In this document: positions 16,406 through 19,399 of the stretch, in pieces
Layout: each line of letters opens with the position of its first letter
Numbering within the stretch: position 1 is the stretch's first letter
Program-made: the position numbers and the translations under genes
Source of the DNA: Streptomyces iconiensis
Lineage (GTDB): Bacteria; Actinomycetota; Actinomycetes; Streptomycetales; Streptomycetaceae
Assembly (NCBI RefSeq): GCF_028657195.3
Contig: NZ_JANCPR020000053.1
Span: forward strand, 1-64,000
Length of the DNA: 64,000 nucleotides
Direction of reading: 5' to 3'
Notes under the pieces: generated by a model
The model's input: only the letters and a program-made list of their open reading frames with translations
Databases searched by the model: none
What the model was told of the DNA's origin: nothing

Positions 16406-17416
16406 CTACGCGGCGAAGATCGAGTCCAGCTTGTCGAACTCCTCCAGACAGCGGCCCGTTCCCAGCGCCACACATCCCAGCGGCTCGTCGGCGACGACGA
16501 CCGGCATGCCGGTCTCCTTCACCAGCCGCTCGTCCAGCCCGTGCAGGAGCGCGCCGCCGCCCGTGAGGACGATGCCGCGTTCCATCACGTCCCCGTACAG
16601 CTCCGGCGGGCAGTCGTCGAACGCCGCCTGCACGGCGGCGACGATGGAGCGTACGGGCGGCTCGACGGCTTCCCGGATCTCGTCGGGCGTCAGCTCGACG
16701 ACCTTGGGCATACCGGTGTTCTTGTCGCGTCCGCGCACCGGCACCGGCTGTTCGCTGCCGAGTGACATCTTGATCTCCTCGGCGGTGCGTTCACCGACGG
16801 CGATCGCGAACTGCCGCTCCACATAGGTGGCGATGGCGGCGTCCAGTGCGTCGCCGGCCACTCGGGCGGAATGGGAGGCGACCATTCCGCCGAGCGAGAT
16901 GATCGCGATCTCCGTGCTGCCGCCGCCGATGTCGACCACCATCGAGCCGCGTGCCTCGTGCACAGGAAGTCCCGCGCCGATCGCCGCGGCCATCGGCTCC
17001 TCGATCAGCCGGACAGAACGGGCACCCGCGCGGGAAGCGGTCTGGAGAACCGCACGCCGCTCGACGCCCGTCACACCGCTGGGCACGCACACCACCACAC
17101 GCGGCGAACGGCCTCGTCTGCCACCGGAAGCGGCCCTGATGAAGTGCCTCAGCATTCCCTCCGTCGCCTCGAAGTCGGTGATCACTCCGCCCTTCAGCGG
17201 GCGGGTGGCCCTGATCGAGCCCGGGGTACGGCCGACCGCCTGGCGCGCTGCGGCCCCAACTGCCAGGACCTTTCCGGTGCGTGAGTCGATCGCGACGACC
17301 GAGGGTTCGTCGAGGACAACGCCACGTCCGCGCGCATACACCAGGGTGTTGGCCGTGCCAAGGTCTATGCCGATGTCGCGGCCGTTGACCGCCGTGAACG
17401 GGGTGCGCTTAGCCAT
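16406..17416 (-). CDS. MreB/Mbl-like actin-family protein
   Basis: The 336-residue actin-fold ATPase has DIGIDLGTANTLVYARGRG (phosphate 1), VVVCVPSGVTGVERRAV, VRLIEEPMAAAIGAGLPV, VVDIGGGSTEIAIISLGG (phosphate 2) and ERGIVLTGGGALLHGLDERL (adenosine). Length matches MreB. It is a solitary gene, not followed by mreC/mreD, so it is more likely an Mbl-type paralogue used in spore-wall synthesis than the primary MreB. The last residues carry no obvious amphipathic helix. ATG 17416 follows the usual family start, and the gene is divergent from the betaine-pathway methyltransferase. Confidence 0.92.
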   Translation of the reverse strand: MAKRTPFTAVNGRDIGIDLGTANTLVYARGRGVVLDEPSVVAIDSRTGKVLAVGAAARQAVGRTPGSIRATRPLKGGVITDFEATEGMLRHFIRAASGGRRGRSPRVVVCVPSGVTGVERRAVLQTASRAGARSVRLIEEPMAAAIGAGLPVHEARGSMVVDIGGGSTEIAIISLGGMVASHSARVAGDALDAAIATYVERQFAIAVGERTAEEIKMSLGSEQPVPVRGRDKNTGMPKVVELTPDEIREAVEPPVRSIVAAVQAAFDDCPPELYGDVMERGIVLTGGGALLHGLDERLVKETGMPVVVADEPLGCVALGTGRCLEEFDKLDSIFAA

Positions 17417-17716
17417 GTGTTCTCGCCATGTTCGGTGCGGGGTGTACGAGACGTACTGAATTGTCGTGCTGACATCCGCAGCATACCCAACTGTCCCGTT
17501 TGCTGCGGTGGGCCGTGGCCACCGCTCCCCCAGAAATCTGGATCCGGAAAGGCGCTGGTCGGAGCTGGTTTTTACGTCAATCTAACCTGTCGGAGCGCGA
17601 CTTGGTGGCATAGATCTGCCGGGCTTGGATAGCTATGCATCGGAGACCATGCGCGGTTCCTGCCCGAAGCCTGGTGCGTCCTCGGGACCGCGCCGTAGGC
17701 CACCGTCTCTTCTACT
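17417..17716. other. Divergent intergenic region between mreB-like and methyltransferase genes
   Basis: About 300 bases, lower in GC than the surroundings, must hold both promoters and the methyltransferase leader. No reading frame continues the methyltransferase upstream, because an in-frame TAG lies at 17696-17698. No known riboswitch consensus was recognised. Confidence 0.6.
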
Positions 17717-17731
17717 GGAGGTTTCGTCATT
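17717..17731 (+). promoter_or_regulatory. Shine-Dalgarno site pointing at an ATT start codon
   Basis: GGAGG at 17717-17721 is 7 bases before ATT 17729-17731, which is in frame with the methyltransferase. No ATG, GTG or TTG occurs in that frame between the upstream TAG (17696) and GTG 17951. The site therefore selects either a genuine ATT start or the position of a lost or misread ATG. Confidence 0.75.
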
Positions 17732-19399
17732 TCCGCGCGACCGGCTCAGGAATTCGGAGACAACCCCGTCGATGTCCGGGAAACCGGACACTACACAGAG
17801 GAGTACGTCCCAAGTTTCGTAGAAAAGTGGGATGCCCTCATAGACTGGGAAAAGCGAGCAGAGAGCGAGGGAAATTTCTTCATCGACCTGCTGAGGAAGC
17901 GGGGAGTCAAGAGCGTTCTCGATGTCGCGACGGGGACCGGGTTCCACTCGGTGCGGCTTCTGGACGCCGGCTTTGAAACCGTGAGCGCGGACGGAAGCGC
18001 CGACATGCTCGCGATGGCGTTCGAGAACGGAATGAAGAACGGCGACCACATTCTGCGGGTCGTCCAGGCCGACTGGCGCTGGCTCAACCGAGACGTTCAC
18101 GGTGAGTACGACGCCATCGTGTGCCTCGGCAACTCGTTCACGCATCTCTTCTCGGAGCGCGACAGGCGCAAGGCACTGGCCGAGTTCTACGCCATGCTGA
18201 AGCACGACGGAATCCTCATTCTGGACCAGCGGAACTACGACGCGATCCTGGACGAGGGCTATTCCAGCAAGCACACGTACTACTACTGCGGCGAAGATGT
18301 CGCGGTGGAGCCCGAGTACGTGGACGAGGGCCTGTGTCGCATGCGGTACACATTCCGCGACAGCTCCTACCACCTCAATATGTTCCCGTTGCGCAAGGAC
18401 TACACGCGCCGGCTCATGACCGATGTCGGCTTCCAGCGCATCGAGACATACGGGGACTTCCAGCACACGTACAGGGCCGAACAGCCCGACTTCTTCGTGC
18501 ATGTTGCGGAGAAGGAATACAGAATGGAGGATTCTGAGGGCGCTTATGGCGCGACGGTCAGCACGGCGCGTACCTATTACAACTCCCCCGACGCTGACAC
18601 CTTTTACGCCTCCGTCTGGGGCGGTGAGGATATTCACGTCGGCGTCTACAAGAGCGACGACGAGCCCATCGCGGACGCGAGCCGCCGCACCGTCGAGCGC
18701 ATGGCGGCCGGTCTCGGTCTGACGAAGGACTCCCTGGTCCTCGACCTCGGCTCCGGCTTCGGCGGCTCGGCCCGCTACCTCGCCGACACGTTCGGGTGCC
18801 GTGTCCAGGCACTCAACCTCAGCGAGGTGGAGAACGAGCGCCACAGGGAGCTGAACTCGGAGCGGAAGCTCACCGACCGTATCGACGTCGTGGACGGCTC
18901 CTTCGAGAGCATCCCGTTCCCCGACTCCAGCGTCGACGTCGTCTGGTCCCAGGACGCGTTCCTGCACAGCGGGGACCGTATCCGCGTCCTGGAGGAGATA
19001 CGCCGCGTCCTGAAGCCGGGCGGTCAGCTCGTCTTCACGGACCCCATGGCAGCCGACGGCACCTCCGTCAGCGCGATCCAGCCCATCCTGGACCGCATCC
19101 ACCTCGACGACATGGGGTCCCCGGGCTTCTACACCCGTGAACTCACCCGTCTGGGCTTCGTTCCGCACGAGCGGAAGGAAGCGACGAACGGCTTCGAGGA
19201 CCTCCGCGAACAACTCGTCACCCACTACGGGCGCGTCCTGCAGGAGACCGAGCGCCAGGAGGGCGAAGGTCTCGCCTCCAAGGTGAGTTCGGACTACCTG
19301 CTCCAGATGAAGAAGGGTCTGACCCACTGGGTCGAGGGCGGCACCAAGCGCCAGCTCACGTGGGGCATCTTCCACTTCACCCTGGACGAGGGCCGCTAG
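17729..19399 (+). CDS. Fused glycine/sarcosine and dimethylglycine N-methyltransferase
   Basis: A 556-residue two-domain SAM-dependent enzyme, expected to methylate glycine three times to glycine betaine, an osmoprotectant. Domain 1 (about 20-270) is GSMT-like: HYTEEYVPSFVEKWDALIDW, motif I DVATGTGFHSVRLLDAGFE, and DAIVCLGNSFTHLF. Domain 2 (about 285-556) is SDMT-like: TYYNSPDADTFYASVWGGED, motif I LDLGSGFGGSARYLAD, and VWSQDAFLHSGDR. The fusion matches the roughly 565-residue Actinopolyspora-type GSDMT. The apparent start is ATT 17729 with an ideal GGAGG. Starting at GTG 17951 (residue 75) would delete motif I of domain 1. The 5' part uses more A/T-ending codons than its neighbours, consistent with transfer. 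Confidence 0.88.
   Translation: MSARPAQEFGDNPVDVRETGHYTEEYVPSFVEKWDALIDWEKRAESEGNFFIDLLRKRGVKSVLDVATGTGFHSVRLLDAGFETVSADGSADMLAMAFENGMKNGDHILRVVQADWRWLNRDVHGEYDAIVCLGNSFTHLFSERDRRKALAEFYAMLKHDGILILDQRNYDAILDEGYSSKHTYYYCGEDVAVEPEYVDEGLCRMRYTFRDSSYHLNMFPLRKDYTRRLMTDVGFQRIETYGDFQHTYRAEQPDFFVHVAEKEYRMEDSEGAYGATVSTARTYYNSPDADTFYASVWGGEDIHVGVYKSDDEPIADASRRTVERMAAGLGLTKDSLVLDLGSGFGGSARYLADTFGCRVQALNLSEVENERHRELNSERKLTDRIDVVDGSFESIPFPDSSVDVVWSQDAFLHSGDRIRVLEEIRRVLKPGGQLVFTDPMAADGTSVSAIQPILDRIHLDDMGSPGFYTRELTRLGFVPHERKEATNGFEDLREQLVTHYGRVLQETERQEGEGLASKVSSDYLLQMKKGLTHWVEGGTKRQLTWGIFHFTLDEGR

Follow-up and report, generated by a model that had tools for sequence, protein, structure and literature searches.

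AUU start codons are very rare; the one that opens pcnB of E. coli, an unrelated gene in an unrelated phylum, appears to be shared by the methyltransferase gene described here. Other near-cognate starts are found in infC, which begins with ATT in E. coli and with ATC in Streptomyces and is autoregulated (PMC5472188), and in sigR of Streptomyces, where repression of a GTC start by IF3 has been demonstrated experimentally and where the start codon is reported as GTC in 32 and GTT in 2 of 34 species (PMC5472188). In vitro, for AUU read by a CAU anticodon, the share of full-length product is lower with more IF3 (PMC10158994). Across 36 sets of related genomes, a published survey counts a switch to AUU in 1 of 61,358 ancestral AUG starts and in 1 of 5,080 ancestral GUG starts (PMC5622118). 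The enzyme family itself is represented among halophiles by the GSMT and SDMT betaine enzymes (for example of Methanohalophilus), where GSMT is described as controlled through the action of K+/Na+ and betaine on the enzyme itself (PMC3176816). Our literature search covered titles and the beginnings of abstracts, with subscription journals mostly outside its reach, and none of the matches listed dealt with an AUU start in GSMT-SDMT.

We analysed a 64,000-nucleotide stretch of Streptomyces iconiensis DNA (the window), which belongs to a draft genome of 9.83 Mb in 124 contigs carrying a single full-length copy of the gene. The gene lies on the forward strand at 17729-19399 and encodes a GSMT-SDMT-type fusion of 556 codons followed by the stop TAG (19397-19399), an enzyme for the synthesis of betaine, which protects against salt. 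Its first domain (residues 7-265; 17747-18523) matches the glycine/sarcosine N-methyltransferase profile NF051855 over its full length (profile positions 1-259 of 259) with 480 bits against a cut-off of 350. The second domain (residues 276-551; 18554-19381) covers positions 8-276 of 278 of the sarcosine/dimethylglycine N-methyltransferase profile NF041675 with 381.8 bits, which is under the cut-off of 550, and it is therefore named SDMT-like here. Position 1 of the GSMT profile aligns with residue 7 of the frame counted from ATT, indicating that little of the N-terminus is missing and that the length of this frame is about right.

Reading of the sequence confirmed the main features reported in the initial annotation, namely a Shine-Dalgarno GGAGG (17717-17721) 7 bases ahead of an in-frame ATT (17729-17731), the 556-codon fusion that follows, and an in-frame TAG (17696-17698) that closes the frame upstream. 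No ATG, GTG or TTG occurs in any frame at 17717-17764. The first in-frame canonical start codon is a GTG at 17951-17953, as had been stated; it had been placed inside SAM motif I, whereas it is codon 75 and follows just after the motif, which we read by eye as residues 63-71. A protein begun at this GTG would therefore be without the motif. The combination GGAGG-N5-9-ATT was found 3 times in the window against a mean of 3.61 expected in shuffles, which is chance level, and it is conservation, not the motif alone, that raises the GGAGG-ATT pair above chance.

Orthologues were gathered by a genus search (present in 30 of 392 genomes, the window's own included), by a family search (14 of 394 genomes, all of the same genus) and from relatives in named genome records, of which 80 were kept of 471; the closest relatives of the window gene in the last set are Streptomyces. 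An annotated plasmid collection held no Streptomyces copy and one distant relative only. These searches gave 116 loci in total, 24 of them with identical gene sequences that were counted once, and together with the window they comprise 93 distinct genes. Seventy-two are from Streptomyces or Streptomycetaceae, and the 21 non-Streptomyces rows are excluded from the 72-row counts given below. L187 was left out as a 100% match to L107, and L188 and L189 as duplicates; L156, L182 and L186 are not in the trees. L210 and five further matches to the SDMT half contain the second half of the gene only and stop short of the start region. The Streptomyces gene tree was built without codons 1-10.

No ATG, GTG or TTG is present at codons -2 to +4 in 47 of the 72 distinct Streptomyces orthologues, and every one of these 47 has ATT at codon 1 with GGAGG before it, separated by 7 bases in 39 genes and by 6 in 8. 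The remaining 25 have no ATT and carry a canonical codon 3 without exception (GTG in 24, ATG in 1), while ATG at the ATT site is seen in 0 of 72. Holders of the ATT include S. cacaoi, S. albus, S. qinglanensis, S. himastatinicus, S. violaceusniger and S. abyssalis, and three of the carrier genomes (L014, L036 and L037) are single-contig assemblies. This comparison of start codons at orthologous loci, which the initial annotation had proposed as a check, strongly supports the non-canonical start that it had suggested.

The ATT is also constant in a neighbourhood that is not. Across the tree of the 47 ATT genes, codon -1 changes at least 5 times and codon 2 at least 5 times, and codon 1 shows no change. 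There are 257 columns in these genes with an invariant residue that more than one codon could encode, and 35 of them never change codon; 34 of the 35 hold the preferred codon, codon 1 being the only one that is non-preferred (ATT accounts for 6.6% of Ile codons). Under a model with three Ile codon states, whose rates come from the four other Ile columns that are invariant, a rough estimate given its protein branch lengths and few columns, the probability that synonymous drift would leave an all-ATT column is 1.9e-9, or 2.8e-8 with an ATT root. The rows for this model were chosen by their ATT; choosing them by the absence of a near canonical start picks the same 47. With the codon held in 47 of 47 genes across species, we consider it very likely that the AUU start is real and under selection.

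The leaders of the two groups differ in predicted strength. Pairing with the anti-Shine-Dalgarno, predicted with the sequence that we take to be the 16S tail, averages -11.25 kcal/mol over the 47 ATT rows (from -12.5 to -10.7) and -7.86 kcal/mol over the 25 canonical rows (from -9.4 to -7.1); the two ranges do not overlap. On the tree, ATT occurs across the base of the Streptomyces genes; those lacking it fall into one clade of 24 and L093, giving 2 changes; both of these lineages have the weaker predicted Shine-Dalgarno. The exchange of codon against Shine-Dalgarno rests on two events, since the state changes just twice among these related rows, and as a pattern of sequence it fits a putative selection for limited total initiation strength. 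One gene tree thus offers a natural comparison of AUU with a strong Shine-Dalgarno and GUG with a weak one.

Several other readings of the site have to be set against these data. The initial annotation had also entertained a mutated or miscalled ATG. ATT is one base from ATG and the window comes from a draft assembly, yet 47 distinct Streptomyces genes, sequenced in many separate assemblies, have the same ATT and Shine-Dalgarno, none of the 72 having ATG in its place, and we give a sequencing error or a recent mutation in this strain a negligible probability. A codon kept with a strong ribosome-binding site across dozens of species is neither a sequencing error nor the mark of a damaged gene, and its conservation leads us to reject this explanation. 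It is also very unlikely that a canonical codon further upstream, or downstream in certain rows, serves as the start and leaves the ATT as an ordinary Ile codon, although such canonical codons are common in the alignment. In 36 of the 47 ATT rows there is an in-frame canonical codon upstream or the frame is still open at 300 bases (the latter in 6), and in 24 of the 47 the upstream codon lies within 60 bases. Their distribution mostly follows clades: an ATG at -57 and a GTG at -33 are common to 12 closely related rows of one 17-row clade, and L085 has an ATG at -18. A GTG at codon 6 occurs in five rows (L048, L062, L066, L068 and L091), and many outgroup genes, of other families, have extensions that begin at ATG. 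In 11 of the 47, however, there is no in-frame ATG, GTG or TTG from the upstream stop to the ATT; the window is among these, as are L089, L090 and L094, which are members of the ATG -57/GTG -33 clade. GGAGG stands at start-codon distance from the ATT in all 47, the sole start that these rows have in common is the ATT with its GGAGG, and under the drift model an ordinary Ile codon should not have remained ATT. On these sequence patterns a canonical start is disfavoured.

Initiation might instead take place one codon earlier, at the GTC of 17726-17728, as in sigR, or at both codons. Codon -1 is GTC in 21 and GTT in 16 of the 47 ATT rows, and these are the very codons reported for sigR, with GTT in 2 of 34 species (PMC5472188). 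In the other 10 rows, however, this position is CCC (7), ATC (1), GCT (1) or CTC (1); GTC/GTT at codon -1 has been gained or lost at least 4 times on the tree, where ATT is constant; and GTC or GTT precedes the ATT or ATC in 0 of 30 rows of family f19, discussed below. A start at the codon -1 GTC is disfavoured by these comparisons and appears improbable. The alternative that retains the largest share of our doubt, though still an unlikely one, accepts the AUU as the start and regards it as frozen and weak, offset by the strong Shine-Dalgarno and subject to no physiologically meaningful regulation by IF3. In prokaryotes generally, genes with GUG or UUG starts tend toward stronger Shine-Dalgarno sequences (PMC5622118), and the exchange seen here is similar. 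Against a frozen codon stands the single-base change to ATG, which any lineage could have made and none of the 72 genes shows, suggesting that a stronger start is disfavoured.

Our preferred explanation, which we judge to be likely, is that ATT 17729 is the true start, that selection keeps it weak and that output is limited through discrimination by IF3. The AUU would be decoded as formyl-Met by the initiator tRNA, and IF3 would, after the example of sigR, destabilise the mispaired complex of AUU and initiator. In Streptomyces the strong Shine-Dalgarno would offset the weak AUU, so that GSMT-SDMT output might stay under the level of an AUG gene and track IF3 activity. Selection would keep the start weak across much of Streptomyces, and apparently in related Actinobacteria too, with the presumed purpose of restraining a pathway that spends three AdoMet per betaine. 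The role of IF3 in holding output down is drawn from the sigR and infC precedents and from the in vitro behaviour of AUU; by this analogy, IF3-limited throttling of GSMT-SDMT seems somewhat better than an even prospect, and it would be consistent with both the codon/Shine-Dalgarno exchange and the sigR case. A further step would be that under salt stress changed cell ions or lowered IF3 activity relax start discrimination, such that the AUU gene is translated more. Betaine synthesis would then act as a read-out of initiation fidelity without a dedicated regulator, an idea that we regard as speculative and improbable. For sigR, enhanced translation under oxidative stress could not be demonstrated (PMC5472188), which cautions against presuming a stress response of such starts.

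Both precedents are present in the genome of the window. On the minus strand of L157, AGGAGGTGGGTCCTGTC opens a frame adjoining an rsrA match, in which the published GTC start is kept (AGGAGGTG); this sigR frame was identified by its position beside rsrA and by its start site, not by a family search. The infC gene (L118) has ATC after GAGGAGG (GAGGAGGCCCCATC), and the 30 bases upstream contain no canonical start in its frame. Among 31 Streptomyces infC genes (30 of 60 matches, plus that of the window genome) 30 have the ATC start, and the remaining one has this ATC ahead of a short duplication; an additional in-frame GTG, 24 bases upstream, occurs in 10 of the 31. The GSMT-SDMT gene is like sigR in that a rare start codon is kept across Streptomyces, with a strong Shine-Dalgarno, on a stress-response gene, and in that it sets a trap for annotation. 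It is unlike sigR in having AUU and not GUC, in encoding a metabolic enzyme and not a sigma factor and in the kind of stress concerned; furthermore, the repression of sigR by IF3 is experimental, whereas GSMT-SDMT is known here by its sequence. With infC it shares an AUH start and a strong Shine-Dalgarno, but its product is not the factor that reads its own codon, and a feedback loop of that type is thus lacking. On the speculative fidelity read-out raised above, infC (AUC), sigR (GUC) and GSMT-SDMT (AUU) would belong to a single group of Streptomyces stress genes tuned by IF3. A conserved AUU on a metabolic stress gene would extend IF3-discriminated near-cognate starts beyond infC and sigR to osmolyte synthesis. 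Gene callers restricted to ATG, GTG and TTG would be expected to mis-start the enzyme in dozens of genomes.

The near-cognate start is also found outside Streptomyces. In family f19, ATT is present in 8 of 8 distinct Actinomadura-like genes in the form GGAGG-N7-ATT, the named Actinomadura loci among them being L104, L107, L109 and L110. In a second clade of the same family, the codon homologous to the Streptomyces ATT is ATT in 14 genes and ATC in 8, thus AUH in 22 of 22. Two members of this clade, L160 and L195, have an ATG at codon 4, three codons past the AUH codon. Over the family as a whole, the stretch from the upstream stop to 30 bases past the AUH codon is free of canonical in-frame starts in L107, L190 and L206. 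Among the 22 genes of the second clade, 18 (L159, L161, L162, L166, L168, L194, L196-L201, L203-L205 and L207-L209) carry an in-frame GTG 15 bases before the ATT or ATC, within the Shine-Dalgarno stretch GTGAGGAG; in L160 and L195 the GTG of this stretch falls out of frame, and L206 lacks it. These 18 rows are weaker evidence, because a GTG that overlaps the Shine-Dalgarno in frame is the trap described for sigR, and it is possibly a systematic source of start mis-annotation. Predicted pairing in the 22 genes of this clade is moderate (-8.89), and the rule of a strong Shine-Dalgarno consequently fails there. On a wider tree of 131 genes the start must have switched between AUH and canonical codons at least 4 times, and as the deep branches of this tree are weak, one and several origins of the AUH start are indistinguishable on it. 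On the same speculative read-out, the AUU device would be of ancient date in Actinobacteria, being carried by Streptomyces, Actinomadura and the second clade. Two further gene arrangements were seen. Genome G1059 carries a GSMT-SDMT fusion together with a separate second copy matching the GSMT part alone (L177, L186), and in genus g54 (G901, G1033, G1294, G1306 and G1323) the match at the E-value used is solely to the SDMT-like half, at about 60% identity.

The region around the start was also searched for RNA structure. At E<=1 no Rfam family matched positions 17300-17900, and changes on both sides were seen in 0 of 20 predicted pairs (18 sequences, L123 left out); a riboswitch or structured leader RNA was rejected on these two results. 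A conserved two-box element, GGCATAG-n-TGGATAGCTATGC, lies at 17607-17638 on the forward strand and, matched as a loose pattern, is found upstream of 42 of the 47 ATT genes vs 5 of the 25 others. It is a candidate that may serve as a promoter or operator. On the minus strand at 16406-17416 is a divergent neighbour that appears MreB/Mbl-like by eye, and the intergenic region between it and the GSMT-SDMT gene probably holds the promoters of both.
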